Shown here piece by piece: positions 11,884 to 31,011 of a stretch of 34,851 nt of DNA. The notes below the pieces were generated by a model. That model searched no databases, was not told the origin of the DNA, and worked only from the letters and a program-made list of their open reading frames with translations. The translations under genes and the position numbers were made by a program. Where the stretch lies: the NCBI GenBank assembly GCA_015522685.1, contig WALU01000051.1:1-34851 (forward strand). The letters run 5' to 3'. The DNA comes from Thermoproteota archaeon. Lineage in GTDB: Archaea > Korarchaeota > Korarchaeia > Korarchaeales > Korarchaeaceae. Each line of letters starts with the position of its first letter. Position 1 is the first letter of the stretch.

Positions 11884-11964
11884 TGCTAACGATTATCGAT
11901 CTTATATCTTGCTCGTCTGATTCCACTAAAGCCTCTCCTTTTAGCTTATTGGGAGGTGCAGTTA

Positions 11965-12852
11965 ATGGAACTAAAATCTAGAATGTTATCTATCTCAGGT
12001 GGAAAAGGAGGCACAGGAAAATCGACAGTGGCTGTGAATCTAGCTATCCTTCTAGCTGAGAATTATGATCTAGTAATGGCCGATCTGGACGTAGAAGACC
12101 CAAACGATCATATACTCCTCGGAGCTCAACTTCAAAATGAGAAGCCAATTAATATAATGCTCCCCTTCATTAAGTATAGTAGCTGTATAAAGTGTGGTGC
12201 CTGTGGAAAGGTTTGTGATACAGGAGCGATGCTCATAAGCCCGGACGGACTACCTTATGTAATTCCTAGGCTCTGTAGTGGATGTATGTCCTGCTACTTT
12301 GCCTGCCCAACAAAGGCCATAGTGCAGGGAGAGAGGACGATAGGCTACACCTATGATACCCCCATACAGTTTAAAGGGGAGGAGTTTCGCCTTATCACAG
12401 GTATATTGAGGGAAGGAGAAGAACATACGCCTCCCGCCGTAATTGCAGCTAAAGAGAGAGCCCTCTCTATAGAAAGGAGCTTCTACCTAATAGATACATC
12501 TGCAGGAACTAGTAACACTGTTGCTACAGCTATGGGCGGATCTAAGCTTTTGTTAGCTGTAACAGAACCAACTCCCCTTGGATTGCATGATCTAGAACTT
12601 ATATTACAACTTGCGTCCCAAATGAGCATAGAAACTTGGGTAGTAATGAATAGGTCTGGTTTGGGTCCTGAAGATGAGCATGATAAAATTGTAAAGAACT
12701 ATGGCTCTAAGATAGTGACGAGAATACCCTACTCTAGAAAGATCGTTGAATCCTATGTGAAGGGCATACCTATAGTCCTATCTCATCCAGAGTCTAAGGA
12801 GACCTCCATATTCAGAAAATTGGCCTTTATGGTTAAGGAGGTGATGGAATGA
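11965..12852 (+). CDS. MinD-superfamily P-loop ATPase with inserted double [4Fe-4S] ferredoxin (first of pair)
   Basis: This 295-residue cytoplasmic ATPase combines a deviant Walker A, SGGKGGTGKST (residues 11-21), and switch I DLDVEDPN with a ferredoxin module inserted in the fold. The cysteines are C74, C77, C80, C84 and C104, C107, C110, C114, enough for two [4Fe-4S] clusters; the first set is followed by Asp instead of the usual Pro. Start: a GTG at 11956 is in frame, but GGGAGGTG at 11951-11958 is placed for the ATG at 11965. The gene overlaps its partner by 4 bases (ATGA). The CPxC motif of Mrp/Nbp35 scaffolds is absent. The precise role (Fe-S carrier, redox-gated ATPase) is unknown. 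Confidence 0.88.
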   Translation: MELKSRMLSISGGKGGTGKSTVAVNLAILLAENYDLVMADLDVEDPNDHILLGAQLQNEKPINIMLPFIKYSSCIKCGACGKVCDTGAMLISPDGLPYVIPRLCSGCMSCYFACPTKAIVQGERTIGYTYDTPIQFKGEEFRLITGILREGEEHTPPAVIAAKERALSIERSFYLIDTSAGTSNTVATAMGGSKLLLAVTEPTPLGLHDLELILQLASQMSIETWVVMNRSGLGPEDEHDKIVKNYGSKIVTRIPYSRKIVESYVKGIPIVLSHPESKETSIFRKLAFMVKEVME

Positions 12853-13823
12853 TTGAAATGGCAATAGCAAGTGGGAAAGGAGGGGTAGGCAAATCTACAG
12901 TTTCATCAACAATAGCTATAACGCTAGCAAAGAAAAGGAAGGTTATAGCTGTTGATGCTGATGCTGACGCTCCTAATATGCACTTAATCTTAGGAATGAG
13001 GGAGTCAAAGTGGGAATGGGAAGAGCCATATAGTGACTCCATGGTGGCTAAGATAGTTCAAGCTAAATGCATTAAATGCGATGAATGCCGCAAGATCTGT
13101 CCATATAGAGCTATAAGCATAGATCCCCAAGGGAACTATGTGATAAGCCAAGTTATATGCGAAGGTTGCCTAACATGCTCACTTATCTGCCCAGTAAAAG
13201 GAGCCATAGTAAGAGAGCAAGCTCTATCTGGTATTATGCGAATGACTCATACAAAATATGGGTTTCCCCTGATCTCCGCCAGACTTAGTCCTGGAAGGCC
13301 TAATACGGGAAAACTTGTGACAGAGGAGAAAACAAAGGCTAAAGAGATAGCTGATCAGGAGACAGTTATAGTGGTAGATTCGGCAGCTGGAATAGGATGT
13401 CAGGTGGTATCGAGCCTCGCTGGAGCTAATATGGCCATTCTGGTAGCTGAGCCGACACCAGCAAGCTTCAATGCTCTAAAGAGAGTTCATACTCTAGCTA
13501 AGCATTTCATGCAACCTGCCGCTATAGTTATCAACAAATGGGATATGAACTCCCAGCTAAGCGAAGAAATTGAGGCATATGCTAGAGAGAATAACCTAGA
13601 TTTCTTAGGCAAGGTACCTTACGATGACTCTATTCCTAAGAGTATGGCCCTCATGAAGCCTGTTATGGAAGCATTTCCAGATAGCTCATCATCAAAGGCC
13701 TTGCTCGAAGTAGCCGAAAGGGTTGGCAGTATACTGGACAATTGGAGGAGTTGGTTCATGAGATACAGGCCAAAGAAGCCGGAGCCCTACAAGCCCGTGA
13801 TAATAAAGCCGGAAGGATTCTGA
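12849..13823 (+). CDS. MinD-superfamily P-loop ATPase with inserted double [4Fe-4S] ferredoxin (second of pair)
   Basis: This 324-residue partner of the preceding gene starts at the ATGA overlap behind GGAGGTG. The deviant Walker A is SGKGGVGKST (8-17), and switch I reads DADADAPNMH. The eight cluster cysteines sit at 74, 77, 80, 84, 104, 107, 110 and 114, exactly the numbering of the partner, but here both sets end in the standard Cys-Pro. It has an extra basic, Pro-rich tail (RYRPKKPEPYKP) missing from the partner. Paired genes of this kind are known in anaerobes and archaea and are thought to form a heterodimer; the client is not known. Confidence 0.9.
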   Translation: MIEMAIASGKGGVGKSTVSSTIAITLAKKRKVIAVDADADAPNMHLILGMRESKWEWEEPYSDSMVAKIVQAKCIKCDECRKICPYRAISIDPQGNYVISQVICEGCLTCSLICPVKGAIVREQALSGIMRMTHTKYGFPLISARLSPGRPNTGKLVTEEKTKAKEIADQETVIVVDSAAGIGCQVVSSLAGANMAILVAEPTPASFNALKRVHTLAKHFMQPAAIVINKWDMNSQLSEEIEAYARENNLDFLGKVPYDDSIPKSMALMKPVMEAFPDSSSSKALLEVAERVGSILDNWRSWFMRYRPKKPEPYKPVIIKPEGF

Positions 13824-26165: not shown

Positions 26166-26972
26166 TTAAGCTGTCTCAAGTATCTTAAATATAGAGATTC
26201 TTCCTATTCCATATTTCTTTATATTATCTAACCACTTGTCTGATACGGATACTATTGAAAAAATGCCCCAAAGCTCCGAACCCACCTCATCTATAATCCT
26301 CATTATGGCGTCTATGGATTCCAAATTATTAAGAACGTCTTTTACCAAGATGATTTTATCTCCTCTATTAATCGACGACCTTGGAATGAAAACATCCATG
26401 ATCCTTCCCTTATCGTGAGATACATAAGAACCTCTAGCGAAAGCATCCACGGTAAGACCAGGATAATCCAAAGTAGAGACCGCTTTGGAAGAGATCCAAT
26501 CAGATGATATAATAGCTAGGGGAGAAACAGCTGAGGGGTGGGCCAATATTATATTCACATCCTCCTCTCCAACGAATTTGGAGATAATATATCCCATTAA
26601 ATCTAAGAACTTGAAACTCGTAAGTAGCCTCCATGTTTCTACATATCCATAAGCATTTGTTCTCAATATCCTATCAAATGCCCTTTCAATTAGCCGTAGC
26701 TCCTCTATTTTACTAATTATCTTTCTGGCTGTCGGTTTTTCTGGGGTATTCTTAAGGCTAATGTACCTCCATATTACCTGGTAGGGTATGCCTAGCATAT
26801 CCTCAAGCTCTTTAAACGTGAAAAATCCTTTTAGTGAACTTAATAACCTAATTGATACATATGGCGACTCTAATCTACCTATTCTAACCAAAATCCTCAC
26901 CCATTTATATACCCAAAAAGAAGGCTGCCATGCATATAACCTTGAGCTTAAAGGGAAAGCGTGTATACTCAC
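26166..26972 (-). CDS. HTH protein with phosphoribosyltransferase-like domain, probable regulator
   Basis: The 268 residues divide into an N-terminal winged-helix-like part (about 45-85, TFKELEDMLGIPYQVIWRYI) and a C-terminal PRTase fold. In that fold the flexible-loop equivalent SYVSHDKG and the PRPP-binding strand GDKIILVKDVLNNLESI replace the usual DD-x-x-TG-G-T, so PRPP may bind while catalysis is unlikely. This architecture is that of archaeal GfcR/PurR-like sensors. The called GTG start adds 24 unconserved residues; a TATA-like GGGTATATAAATGG (26914-26901) lies inside them, so the real start may be near 26900. The gene is divergent from the four-gene PLP/DUF1611/PP-loop/GNAT operon, which it may control (inference). 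Confidence 0.72.
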   Translation of the reverse strand: MSIHAFPLSSRLYAWQPSFWVYKWVRILVRIGRLESPYVSIRLLSSLKGFFTFKELEDMLGIPYQVIWRYISLKNTPEKPTARKIISKIEELRLIERAFDRILRTNAYGYVETWRLLTSFKFLDLMGYIISKFVGEEDVNIILAHPSAVSPLAIISSDWISSKAVSTLDYPGLTVDAFARGSYVSHDKGRIMDVFIPRSSINRGDKIILVKDVLNNLESIDAIMRIIDEVGSELWGIFSIVSVSDKWLDNIKKYGIGRISIFKILETA

Positions 26973-27084: not shown

Positions 27085-28044
27085 ATGATCCAGAAAGATT
27101 GCTCCTTTGAGAGTTTTAGATTTCCTGGAACTTTTTTTAAAGCAAACTTAGTAGCTAGGATCTTAGGATATAAAGGAGATCTTTACATAAAATGGGAAGG
27201 AGATAACCCTACAGGAACACAAAAGGATAGGGCAGGTTTGAGGCATGCCGCTAAAGCATATTCCCAAAGATATTCTGGTTTAACAGTAGGTACCTGTGGA
27301 AACTATGGGGTTTCAATTGCATATTTTGCAAGTATGATGGGTCTAAAAGCAGTAATTTTCATGCCAAGGAGGTATTCTGGCTCTAGAATAGGAGAGATGA
27401 TAAGACTTGGTGCAAGAGTTATTAGAGTAGACGGGAGCTATGAGGACGCTGTAGAGGCTAGCATTCTAGCATCCCTAGAGGGAGATCTTTATGATGCAAA
27501 TCCAGGAGGGGTAAATGGAGAAGAAGCTCTTAGATCCTTTATGGACATAGCTTATGAAATTGTAAATTCTTTAGGAAAATCTCCAGATTTAGTTTCAGTA
27601 CCTGTAGGAAATGGAACTACCTTAGCCGGGATATACCTTGGATTCAAGGATCTTATGACTAGAGGGCTTACTGACAGAGTACCTAAGATGATCGGGGGAA
27701 CAACCGTCCTTGGAAACCAGGTAGCATTAACCCTTAAGAGATCATCTCGCGAGCTTGTGAATCTATCAGAGAGCGACGTTCGAGAAACAGAGGTCAATGA
27801 ACCTCTTGTGGCGATCAAATCTCTCGATGGGGGCGATGCGATTAAAGCTATCCTAGAAACTAAAGGCAGAGTCTATGAGCTCACCGATGAGGAAATGATC
27901 TCCTTGGCTGAAATTCTCTCGTTAGAGAGAATAGATCCTCTACCGGCTTCTAGCTCCTCATTAGGAGCAATAAGAGAGTATAGTGATGAAAATGCATTCT
28001 CAGGAACTGCCGTAGCAATTATCACTGGGAGAAAATCGAGATGA
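27085..28044 (+). CDS. Threonine-synthase-like PLP enzyme (fold type II)
   Basis: This 319-residue enzyme carries the fold-type-II PLP set. The Schiff-base lysine is probably K47 in NPTGTQKDR (threonine synthase has TGSFKDR). The substrate loop TCGNYGVS (70-77) replaces the usual S-x-GN-x-G, and the phosphate-binding segment is VPVGNGTTLAG. It lacks the long N-terminal region of true threonine synthases and is shorter (usual 350-500). It therefore probably performs a beta- or gamma-replacement on a related phospho- or acetyl-amino acid rather than making threonine. It heads an operon: its stop overlaps the next ATG by 4 bases. Confidence 0.85.
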   Translation: MIQKDCSFESFRFPGTFFKANLVARILGYKGDLYIKWEGDNPTGTQKDRAGLRHAAKAYSQRYSGLTVGTCGNYGVSIAYFASMMGLKAVIFMPRRYSGSRIGEMIRLGARVIRVDGSYEDAVEASILASLEGDLYDANPGGVNGEEALRSFMDIAYEIVNSLGKSPDLVSVPVGNGTTLAGIYLGFKDLMTRGLTDRVPKMIGGTTVLGNQVALTLKRSSRELVNLSESDVRETEVNEPLVAIKSLDGGDAIKAILETKGRVYELTDEEMISLAEILSLERIDPLPASSSSLGAIREYSDENAFSGTAVAIITGRKSR

Positions 28045-29087
28045 AGGAGGCCTTAATATTAACTGAGAGTAAATATCTCACCTCTGATGCTAAAACGGCT
28101 CATGGCTTGATCAGGAAATCATTAAGATATAAAATAGTCGGTGTAATAGATAGCACGGTAGCAGGGGAAGATGCAGGAATGATTTTAGATGGAAAGCCTA
28201 GAGGCATAAAGATATATGAGGATTTGAACTTGGCCTTAACTCATAATCCAAGGGCATCAGTACTTATAGTTGGAGTTGCCACCTCAGGAGGCAAGCTACC
28301 TTCTAGCTATAGAAGCATAGTAAGGGAAGCTCTTGAGAGGGGATTGGATGTAGTTTCTGGTCTTCATGAGTTTCTTAGTGACGACATTGAGCTATCCAGC
28401 ATAGCTAAAGAAAAAGGAGCGAAAATAATAGATGTTAGAAAAATATATCAGAGCATGAAAATTTTTTATACCGGAAAGATACGTGAAGTTAAATCTATCA
28501 GAGTCGTGGTCCTAGGTACAGACGCATGTATAGGAAAAAGAACAACAGCATGGATGCTCGTAGATGAGTTAAATGATAAGGGAATAAGGTCCGTTATTAT
28601 CGGTACTGGGCAAACAGCATGGATGCAAGGAGCTAAGTATGGAATAGTGCTAGATTCTATGATAAACGACTTTATTCCTGGTGGCCTAGAGCATGAAGTT
28701 TGGAGGGCCTACAAGGAGGAAAATCCTGATGTAATGGTGGTGCCTGGCCAGGGATCAATGCTGCATCCCGTATTCCCCGGTAGCTTTGAGATTCTTAACC
28801 TTCTCTCCCCAGAAGTTGTAGTCCTTCAACATGCTCCTGGGAGAAAGCACTTAGAGGACTTCCCAGAGTATCCGCTCCCTCCTTTAGATAAGTACATAAG
28901 TTTGGTAGAACTGATGACTGGAAACAAACCTACTGCGATTACGATAAACACTGAAGGAATGAGGGAAGAGGAAATTAATGCCTACCTAAGGAGAGTGGAG
29001 AGGGATTATGGGATACCTACATGTGCTCCTTTATTGCAAGGAGTTGAAAAAGTAGCTCGTCTAACAGAGAGGAGAATTGAAAGATGA
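28041..29087 (+). CDS. DUF1611 (DgcN-like) P-loop protein
   Basis: This 348-residue member of DUF1611/COG3367 has an N-terminal Rossmann-like domain and a C-terminal P-loop domain beginning GTDACIGKRTTAW (159-171), followed by the family blocks GTGQTAWMQGAKYG and PGGLEHEVWRAYKEE and by PGQGSMLHP. DgcN, a characterised member, N-acetylates D-glutamate in a D-Glu degradation route of marine bacteria and haloarchaea, usually beside the epimerase DgcA. No DgcA-type enolase-fold epimerase is present here; the next gene is a MurL-like PP-loop protein instead. It overlaps both neighbours by 4 bases (ATGA), so it is translationally coupled. The substrate is probably an amino acid or its derivative (inference). 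Confidence 0.88.
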   Translation: MKEALILTESKYLTSDAKTAHGLIRKSLRYKIVGVIDSTVAGEDAGMILDGKPRGIKIYEDLNLALTHNPRASVLIVGVATSGGKLPSSYRSIVREALERGLDVVSGLHEFLSDDIELSSIAKEKGAKIIDVRKIYQSMKIFYTGKIREVKSIRVVVLGTDACIGKRTTAWMLVDELNDKGIRSVIIGTGQTAWMQGAKYGIVLDSMINDFIPGGLEHEVWRAYKEENPDVMVVPGQGSMLHPVFPGSFEILNLLSPEVVVLQHAPGRKHLEDFPEYPLPPLDKYISLVELMTGNKPTAITINTEGMREEEINAYLRRVERDYGIPTCAPLLQGVEKVARLTERRIER

Positions 29088-30541
29088 ATGTCAATTTAAA
29101 GTGCTTTGATAGAATCTCAATTAAAGACCTAAAAGTTAAGCCTCATAGTATATCTTCTACATATTCATTGGAAATGGATGGAATAAGAAGAGAGTATAAG
29201 CTCATTGAGAGCTATACTGAAAATATAAATATAAGAGAAGTAAAGGGTATAGAAGAGCTTGCTAGCCTGATAAGCATAGTCCCAGTAGTTAACTATGCTC
29301 TATTCACAGATGAAATAAGCATAGACTTCCCAATCATAGAGTTAGATCTGAAATTTATGAGAGATATGAGTGAGATAACTTCTAGAGATGTATTTGTAAA
29401 TAGGATAGCTCGCGGGACTGGACTTGTAAAGGGAGAGTATATTCCTGATCCTGAGAGCATATCCCTCATGGATGCCAAGCCTAGGGCATCAATTTATGCT
29501 AGGAGGTCCACCTCTACAGCGTTAGACGAAATTGATGGAGAATATACGTGCGGGACCATGCTCTCTGGGGGTAAGGATAGTCTTCTCACTTATTCTCTCT
29601 TGAAGGAGGCAGGATGCAAAGTATATCCTTTTTTTCTAAATGAATCTGGGAGGCATTGGCTATCTGCTTTGAAGGCATATAGATACTTTTCGAAAAATAT
29701 TCCTCTAACAAGAAGAGTGTGGAGCAATATAGATAGGTTATTTGCATTTATAGAGAGAAATATGAAAATTGTGGTCCCTAATTTCATGAGAAAATCCAGA
29801 GAACTTTATCCTATAAGATTATTCTGGTTTGAGCATTATGCTTTCTCTTTTCTACCGCTTATAATGAAGTATAAAGTAGGGAATATAAATTTTGGAAACG
29901 AATTTGATGATCCCACGAGCTCTTCCTTCACCTTCAGGGGAATAGAGCATTATAACGCAATATACGATCAATCTCAGAGTTTTGAGAAATATATGACCAA
30001 TTGGTTCGGAGAAAGAGGATTGGGCATAAAGCAATGGTCTCCCATAAGGCCAATCTCCGGCTTGATTGTAGAGAAAATCCTCTATGAAAGATATAGAGCA
30101 ATGATACAGCTGCAAATGAGCTGTCACTCTCCTAAAATAGTTAGGGGAGAGCTAATACCTTGTGGAAGCTGCTTTAAGTGCACAGGCGTAATGATATTCC
30201 TCTTAGCTAATGGAATAGATCCAAAAATGGTAGGATACACCACTAGCCTGAGTGAAGTGCTTGCTAGAGTTAGAGAAGGAAAATATAGATTAGATAAGGA
30301 TGAGTTGGAGCATTCCTTATTTCTTATGGGAAAAAGATTTCTTATAAAGAGTCCCAAAGCATCATATCACCCTCATGTTGAGACAATCCACTTCGATAAC
30401 ATATCCTCTCATCTCGACTTTATTCCTCAGAAAAAACTAAGAGAAAGAGTACTTGGTATATTAGAGAGGTATACGAAGGGATATTCTGTCTTGAGGGGAA
30501 ACAAATGGGAGATAATGAACAAGGAAAAGCTATCAATGTAG
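29084..30541 (+). CDS. PP-loop ATPase resembling the glutamyl epimerase MurL
   Basis: This 485-residue protein has an ATP pyrophosphatase PP-loop SGGKDS at 161-166 within CGTMLSGGKDSLLTYSLL, after an N-terminal domain I do not recognise. Further on come GNEFDDP (271-277), YDQSQSFEKYM (294-304) and a Cys cluster C347, C360, C363, C366 (CGSCFKC, likely a metal site). The arrangement (PP-loop, then N-E acidic block, then H/YxQSxSFE, then C-G-x-C-x-K-C) parallels MurL, which inverts the terminal L-Glu of UDP-MurNAc-dipeptide after AMP activation. This cell should have no murein, so the substrate must differ. It is coupled by ATGA to DUF1611 upstream and overlaps the GNAT gene by 37 bases. Family match is from memory of motifs, not a search. 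Confidence 0.68.
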   Translation: MNVNLKCFDRISIKDLKVKPHSISSTYSLEMDGIRREYKLIESYTENINIREVKGIEELASLISIVPVVNYALFTDEISIDFPIIELDLKFMRDMSEITSRDVFVNRIARGTGLVKGEYIPDPESISLMDAKPRASIYARRSTSTALDEIDGEYTCGTMLSGGKDSLLTYSLLKEAGCKVYPFFLNESGRHWLSALKAYRYFSKNIPLTRRVWSNIDRLFAFIERNMKIVVPNFMRKSRELYPIRLFWFEHYAFSFLPLIMKYKVGNINFGNEFDDPTSSSFTFRGIEHYNAIYDQSQSFEKYMTNWFGERGLGIKQWSPIRPISGLIVEKILYERYRAMIQLQMSCHSPKIVRGELIPCGSCFKCTGVMIFLLANGIDPKMVGYTTSLSEVLARVREGKYRLDKDELEHSLFLMGKRFLIKSPKASYHPHVETIHFDNISSHLDFIPQKKLRERVLGILERYTKGYSVLRGNKWEIMNKEKLSM

Positions 30542-31011
30542 AGATTAGAATAGTAGAGTTACCTCCTGAGGAATTTGAGAAGTACATAGAGTTTGACTCT
30601 ATGATGAGTTGGGAGTTTATAGATGAGGAAATAAGGAATAAGATGACCTTTGAAGATTACAAAGAAATTCATAGAAGGCTTGTTAGTATTATTTACTTCT
30701 CTAACTTGGATAACAGAATATTCGCTGCCATAAAGAGAGATGATATAATTGGCATAGCTTGGGTTGGATTGAAAATAGATACAATCAACTACATACCTAT
30801 AGGGTATCTTTATGATATAGAAGTTAGAGAAGATTACAGAAGAAGTGGCTTGGGGAGTAAGCTAATGTATCTAGTGGAAGAGGCTTGCAAGGAATGGAGT
30901 GTAGATAGAATTGTGCTCTCCGTTGACTTGGATAATAAGGAAGCATATAGATGGTATCTAAAGAGAGGATACCATATAAAGAGGCTGATAATGACTAAAA
31001 TACTGAGATGA
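30505..31011 (+). CDS. GNAT-family N-acetyltransferase
   Basis: This 168-residue acetyltransferase has the acetyl-CoA motif A as IEVREDYRRSGLGSKLMYL (R-R-x-G-x-G, near residues 111-129) and the closing YRWYLKRGYHIKR block. It overlaps the MurL-like gene by 37 bases in another frame, which indicates tight coupling as the last gene of the operon. No later ATG would keep the complete fold, so the overlap is accepted. The acceptor is unknown; an amino group of the pathway product, or self-protection by acetylation, are both plausible. Confidence 0.85.
   Translation: MGDNEQGKAINVEIRIVELPPEEFEKYIEFDSMMSWEFIDEEIRNKMTFEDYKEIHRRLVSIIYFSNLDNRIFAAIKRDDIIGIAWVGLKIDTINYIPIGYLYDIEVREDYRRSGLGSKLMYLVEEACKEWSVDRIVLSVDLDNKEAYRWYLKRGYHIKRLIMTKILR

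Follow-up and report, generated by a model that had tools for sequence, protein, structure and literature searches.

The locus considered here raises the question of which pathway could call for a fold-type-II PLP enzyme, a DUF1611 protein, a MurL-like PP-loop protein and a GNAT acetyltransferase to be encoded together. The four genes lie in a window of 34,851 nucleotides (the whole stretch of DNA that was analysed) from a 1.48 Mb draft genome of the Korarchaeaceae, and a first-pass annotation had described them as a single coupled operon. The four reading frames and their overlaps of 4, 4 and 37 bases, as given by the ORF coordinates, were confirmed at the exact positions, and the family assignments proved correct on the basis of matches to Pfam and NCBIfam models and the homology of the PP-loop protein to MurL. 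The extent assigned to the system was, however, too short, as it left out a regulator-like gene that belongs to it in Korarchaeia and Thermofilaceae. The features are:

26166 to 26972, minus strand: divergent gene for a protein with an HTH and a phosphoribosyltransferase-like domain whose PRPP motif is degenerate; probably regulates the cassette

27085 to 28044, plus strand: fold-type-II PLP enzyme of the PRK06381 family, with an ATG start

28041 to 29087, plus strand: operon-type DUF1611 protein, with a Rossmann-like DUF1611_N domain and a P-loop domain; ATG start

29084 to 30541, plus strand: MurL-related PP-loop protein with no Pfam match; ATG start

30505 to 31011, plus strand: GNAT acetyltransferase, a putative accessory tailoring gene; ATG start

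The operon is separated by 112 bases from the divergent gene and by 180 bases from the next gene downstream, and the 37-base overlap between the PP-loop and GNAT genes has the identical length in G009, G010, G011 and G012. Five further genomes of the window's genus have these four genes in identical order, and in this genus the set is all-or-none (six genomes with it, ten without). Within the same family, G022 carries all four genes, the record of Candidatus Methanodesulfokora washburnensis (L025), placed by NCBI in the Korarchaeia, has the same cassette as G022, and G023 retains the first cassette genes up to a contig end that falls inside the PP-loop gene. A scan of genome contigs with the PP-loop alignment additionally matched Thermofilaceae, a Thermoplasmatota MAG, NC10/Methylomirabilota, Caldiserica, Planctomycetota and Acidobacteria, and the PLP, DUF1611 and PP-loop genes recur as a trio in Thermofilaceae, Thermoplasmatota, Thermococcales-like archaea, NC10, Planctomycetota and Acidobacteriota. 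As the set recurs in the same order in distant genomes, its arrangement is not due to chance. In certain Thermofilaceae the PLP and DUF1611 genes and the PP-loop and GNAT genes occupy two separate loci, and in others the PLP, DUF1611 and PP-loop genes share one locus. The Caldiserica MAG has the DUF1611, PP-loop and GNAT genes, and a PLP gene was not found beside them on its short contig. The conserved unit is the trio of fold-type-II PLP enzyme, operon-type DUF1611 protein and Pfam-less PP-loop protein. Thus, the neighborhood survey that the first-pass annotation had called for was strongly positive, with the families kept together across archaea and some bacteria; its view of the four genes as a unit held for the trio but not for GNAT, which is replaced elsewhere by other tailoring genes, and its archaeal setting held for the archaeal copies but not as a restriction to archaea, the trio being complete in NC10, Planctomycetota and Acidobacteriota.

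Co-occurrence across genomes likewise bears out the reading of these genes as one functional unit. The core PP-loop family is present in 16 of 297 archaeal genomes; all 16 encode a PRK06381 enzyme scoring over the cut-off, as against 3 of the 281 genomes without it, and all 16 have a strong DUF1611 match, as against 36 of 281 (by our own table count). The corresponding Fisher test values (8e-24 for PRK06381, 9e-14 for DUF1611) are descriptive only and overstate independence, because the genomes are related and fall into few lineages. DUF1611 was also found in all 11 of the non-korarchaeal PP-loop genomes tested. In the family that we label Thermococcales-like, an apparent affinity taken from a neighboring protein closely similar to PDB 6a34, which we take to be a Pyrococcus entry, a full-length PP-loop gene is present in 21 of 94 genomes and several others have frameshifted or fragmentary remnants; therefore, the gene is accessory and often lost there. 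The decayed remnants in G463, G465, G450 and G451 show that this loss was repeated. The class around G158 has the PP-loop gene in 24 of 150 genomes, nearly all within two families. A further group appears to be Thermoplasmatota-like from its tree position beside the named Thermoplasmatota MAG.

Maximum likelihood trees of the three trio proteins are largely congruent, although deep branches are weakly supported in the PLP tree: in these trees the bacteria group together, as do the Thermoplasmatota-like sequences, and the window's genus lies nearer to Thermofilaceae than to G022, a member of its own family. Pairwise identities of the three proteins correlate with r of 0.83-0.93. Based on the congruence of the trees the trio travels as a unit, and these sequence relationships would fit co-inheritance of the three genes, with lateral transfer of the whole block included; a search of a plasmid collection for plasmid-borne spread of the cassette gave no match. 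The operon-type DUF1611 proteins form a clade with support of 100/99 that includes only two outsiders, L097 and L162, and in L097 the gene adjoins a distant MurL-like PP-loop gene.

The PLP enzyme (PALP, 155 bits, E 2.7e-45) exceeds the cut-off of the NCBIfam model NF004996, named "threonine synthase" (PRK06381; 378.7 bits against 266), and its predicted model (pLDDT 91.7) has threonine synthases as the nearest solved folds. With ThrC it shares fold type II, the overall fold and the NPTGxxKDR lysine motif (here NPTGTQKDR, with K47 invariant). Hence, it might be read as catalyzing ordinary threonine biosynthesis, with the other genes coupled to it by accident, and one Thermoplasmatota-like genome (G192) indeed has no other thrC over the cut-off. 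However, the general thrC equivalog TIGR00260 scores only 72 bits against a cut-off of 167.1, so that the match is confined to the narrower PRK06381 model. Canonical threonine synthases use the STGNT, NSVNPxR and GNAGN blocks in substrate and cofactor binding; their residues were not found in the alignment of the operon proteins, which are shorter and have invariant blocks of their own (TCGNYG, NPGG, GNGTT and NEPL). Moreover, a separate thrC over the cut-off is present in 17 of the 19 genomes tested, including a canonical copy elsewhere in the window genome (289 bits), and the partner genes are conserved over several phyla. Because of this separate thrC it is very unlikely that the operon gene serves the cell as its threonine synthase; together with the differing signature this led us to reject the threonine reading, which we judge highly improbable, and the database name of this gene group is very probably wrong. 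Four draft genomes with the PP-loop gene (G061, G063, G383 and G410) yielded no homoserine dehydrogenase, which weakly disfavors homoserine as a substrate, although G063 still has thrC. In two genomes of the window's family (G016, L157:6474-7508; G020, L158:6385-7419) a PRK06381-type PLP gene over the cut-off lies in a different neighborhood, and both genomes are without the DUF1611 or PP-loop gene.

The second protein matches both domains of DgcN-type proteins (DUF1611, 220 bits; DUF1611_N, 103 bits), has the P-loop motif GTDACIGKRTT and has 2g0t, 7xrj and 2obn as relatives. The first-pass annotation had invoked DgcN, which with DgcA forms a route from D-Glu to L-Glu (PMC10845958); the chemistry ascribed to DgcN here draws on the name of its NCBIfam model and on PMC12363236 and PMC10845958. 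Membership in the DUF1611 family stands, but DgcN activity cannot be transferred to this protein because its score falls far short of the DgcN model NF041892 (176.5 bits against a cut-off of 480). The two systems are alike in placing a member of the DUF1611 acyltransferase family beside an inverting enzyme, and the bacterial cassettes even include a DgcA-like enolase; the cassette differs in adding a PLP enzyme and a PP-loop protein, and a DgcA racemase partner is absent from the window operon, the DgcA-like enolase occurring in bacterial but not archaeal cassettes. Outside the cassette, archaeal DUF1611 genes lie beside or near enolase-type epimerases in five loci (L159, L160, L161, L167 and L168) and ornithine-racemase-like genes in three others; no racemase-type or MurL-like neighbor was found for those of L162, L164 and the divergent L169-L172 group. 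The cassette puts DUF1611 into a role wider than D-glutamate use. The pairs with ornithine-racemase-like genes (L163:4930-7073, L165:5451-7608 and L166:4773-6928; Orr scores of 395-410 bits in the two tested) were not found described in the literature searched. In a Caldiserica contig (L089:3899-6286) a second DUF1611 gene lies directly 3' of a homoserine dehydrogenase gene; it was rejected as a clue to the substrate as it falls with the ornithine-racemase-linked group in the tree, outside the operon clade.

The third protein, with no Pfam match in the window, carries the PP-loop motif SGGKDS at residues 161-166 and four cysteines invariant over the family (C347-x12-C360-x2-C363-x2-C366), a spacing variant of C(x)8CxxCxxC, so that it combines an SGGxDS loop with a C-CxxCxxC motif. 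These cysteines match in order the zinc ligands C334/C354/C357/C360 of QatC (comparison with PMC13279940), pointing to a shared QatC/QueC-type predicted zinc site, and QatC is also the best PDB fold for the predicted model (pLDDT 90.1), which further resembles Cap9 and QueC. At the sequence level, the affinity is with MurL: the MurL model, the sole NCBIfam model matched, detects 15 of 20 family members (best E 5.7e-9), and profile comparison joins the family to archaeal MurL-like proteins (E 3.9e-24), whereas QueC (PF06508) reaches at best E 0.014, in 5 of 20 members. The MurL-like motifs noted at first are therefore upheld as homology, but MurL activity cannot be transferred because the scores fall far short of the model NF041275 (cut-off 700): the window protein reaches 12.8 bits (E 0.03) and that of L033 33.5 bits.

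MurL acts on a peptide precursor, the terminal L-Glu of which it inverts unidirectionally while converting ATP to AMP, probably via a carboxyl adenylate (PMC5808125, PMC8788868), and QueC-family relatives spend ATP on a carboxyl-bearing substrate to yield an amide, a nitrile or a protein conjugate (PMC13329287, PMC13279940, PMC11996544); activation of a carboxylate is therefore the common denominator. Like MurL, the protein is of the PP-loop type, about 450-490 residues long and related in sequence, and in the MurD2-MurL pathway, as is proposed for the cassette, an amino group is first blocked before the residue is inverted at the cost of ATP to AMP. It differs in its host family in Korarchaeia and in having DUF1611 and a fold-type-II PLP enzyme as partners; neither MurD2 nor peptidoglycan genes were recognized beside it. 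With QueC, QatC and Cap9 it shares the predicted fold, loop and zinc cluster, as well as an N-terminal extension as in QatC, but it lies outside Pfam QueC, conserves other pocket residues and has no recognized 7-deazaguanine or defense neighbors. It represents, within the MurL/QueC fold group, a conserved family missing from Pfam. More distant archaeal MurL-like PP-loop genes adjoin genes for D-Ala-D-Ala-ligase-like ATP-grasp proteins (L091:5910-9719 and L094:5751-8738), with two PP-loop genes in tandem in L091 and a PRK06381 enzyme and a GNAT gene also present in L094; these could possibly constitute a separate D-amino-acid ligase system.

The fourth position is variable. It is a GNAT gene in Korarchaeia (in the window, Acetyltransf_1, 58.8 bits against a gathering score of 20.7, E 7.8e-16), Thermofilaceae, Thermococcales-like genomes and Caldiserica, a methyltransferase in G027 of the same phylum, where it stands in place of GNAT, and a dipeptide-epimerase-like member of the enolase superfamily in NC10, Planctomycetota and Acidobacteriota; Thermoplasmatota-like genomes have none. 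The bacterial enolases have the enolase fold and keep the KxK lysines and the DxD motif familiar from dipeptide epimerases; that of Planctomycetota finds the dipeptide epimerase 3jva as its best PDB match (E 9e-70), and they score 149-168 bits against DgcA. In Planctomycetota and Acidobacteriota the PP-loop protein carries a creatininase domain as a C-terminal fusion, and in three Thermofilaceae the PP-loop gene has a divergently oriented Asparaginase_2 gene as its neighbor. We read this pattern as a constant core with variable tailoring genes. The creatininase-family amidohydrolase fusion (L031:11513-12295, L032, L033 and L195-L197) has MftE as its nearest NCBIfam model, under the cut-off. 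Downstream of the Planctomycetota cassette, on the opposite strand, is an open reading frame of 2103 residues (L031:14865-21176), whose start reads like a polyketide synthase.

In light of the above, we tentatively propose that the operon is a copy of a horizontally mobile biosynthetic cassette, whose product would be a small amide-linked, probably D-configured, amino-acid metabolite. What the analysis establishes is how the genes are ordered, that they co-occur and are inherited together, and what their family relations, predicted folds and conserved motifs are; the reactions, their order and the product are inferred as follows. The PLP enzyme would make or remodel an amino acid, the amino group of which DUF1611 may block by adding an acyl or aminoacyl moiety. 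In a subsequent ATP-dependent step, the PP-loop protein would adenylate the carboxylate of the blocked amino acid (yielding AMP and PPi) and, as our first choice, invert its alpha carbon unidirectionally in the manner of MurL or, as the second, couple the adenylated carboxylate to an amine. The GNAT, methyltransferase or enolase/creatininase enzymes would tailor or release the product. An undescribed ATP-driven, one-directional inversion pathway, by which archaea lacking peptidoglycan would make a D-configured small molecule and whose mobile cassette would be shared with bacteria, is possible, though we would place somewhat less confidence in it. The parts belong to known families, and by analogy the logic would resemble that of MurD2-MurL and DgcN-DgcA. 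No described pathway of such composition was found within the open-licence literature searched, in line with the first-pass annotation, which knew of none, and the MurL homology and the DUF1611 neighbors favor the connection it suggested with amino acids that are D-configured or N-acylated. Reports of free D-amino acids with no known purpose in hyperthermophilic archaea and Thermoplasma go back many years (PMC6047364, citing Matsumoto 1999, Nagata 1999 and Long 2001); the cassette offers a concrete, testable gene set for them, with copies available in single-contig Thermococcales-like and Thermoplasmatota-like genomes.

This inversion proposal draws on the co-occurrence of the trio, its all-or-none presence in the genus, the largely congruent trees and the retention of the parts when split in Thermofilaceae; on the MurL link, with MurL-like genes beside an operon-clade DUF1611 (L097) and beside PRK06381 and ATP-grasp genes (L094); on the epimerase or racemase neighbors of DUF1611 elsewhere; on the bacterial enolases; and on the precedent of MurL itself. 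Against it, the MurL equivalog score is not reached, several DUF1611 genes have no racemase beside them, the Caldiserica copy is without a PLP gene on its short contig, and a second inverting enzyme would be redundant in bacterial operons that already hold an enolase epimerase. Furthermore, the closest folds are those of relatives that form an amide, a nitrile or a protein conjugate instead of inverting a center, and so the PP-loop protein may instead be an amide or peptide ligase that, in the manner of QueC or Cap9, joins an adenylated carboxylate to ammonia or an amine. The trio would then build an L-configured amide or dipeptide, with stereochemistry, where wanted, coming from the separate DxD-bearing bacterial epimerase. 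The QatC-like cysteines and the constancy of the trio beside a varying tailoring gene agree with such a ligase, but the family is related in sequence to MurL and not to QueC, and the QueC signature motifs YxQxHxxE and VPxRN (PMC13329287) are absent among its invariant residues; we consider a ligase unlikely.

A role in salvage or catabolism, with D-amino acids (such as D-Glu or D-Asp of bacterial debris) converted to L-forms via N-acyl intermediates by a relative of DgcN-DgcA, would be in keeping with the DUF1611 family, the DgcA-like bacterial enolase and the D-Glu to L-Glu direction of that route, and the patchy distribution and decay in Thermococcales-like genomes would suit an accessory catabolic trait. 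Yet genes for a transporter, an oxidase or a deacylase are missing from the archaeal operons, the MurL reaction is restricted to the L to D direction (PMC8788868) and consumes ATP, nothing in the DgcN-DgcA scheme calls for the PLP enzyme, and the DUF1611 protein is far below the DgcN cut-off; accordingly, we hold this to be quite improbable. The fold similarity to QatC and Cap9 might also suggest a protein- or nucleotide-conjugating defense module like QatABCD or type IV CBASS. However, PADLOC models match none of the four operon proteins (a marginal match, E 0.0086, concerns the phosphoribosyltransferase-like neighbor), no Qat or CBASS partner was recognized in the neighborhoods and the partners of the PP-loop protein are amino-acid enzymes, so that this candidate was rejected as exceedingly unlikely.

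The product of the divergent gene combines an N-terminal HTH-like region with a phosphoribosyltransferase-like domain (PRK08558, 99 bits against a cut-off of 184), whose PRPP motif is degenerate in all orthologs aligned; its function is therefore probably regulatory and not enzymatic. Within the genus, all six operon-bearing genomes have a close ortholog and the ten without the operon have none, only distant paralogs at most, and the gene adjoins cassette genes in Thermofilaceae. This phosphoribosyltransferase-fold protein probably regulates the cassette in Korarchaeia and Thermofilaceae. Elsewhere in the window (11956-13823), two neighboring genes with a 4-base overlap code for MinD/ParA-type P-loop ATPases, each with 4Fe-4S ferredoxin domains.
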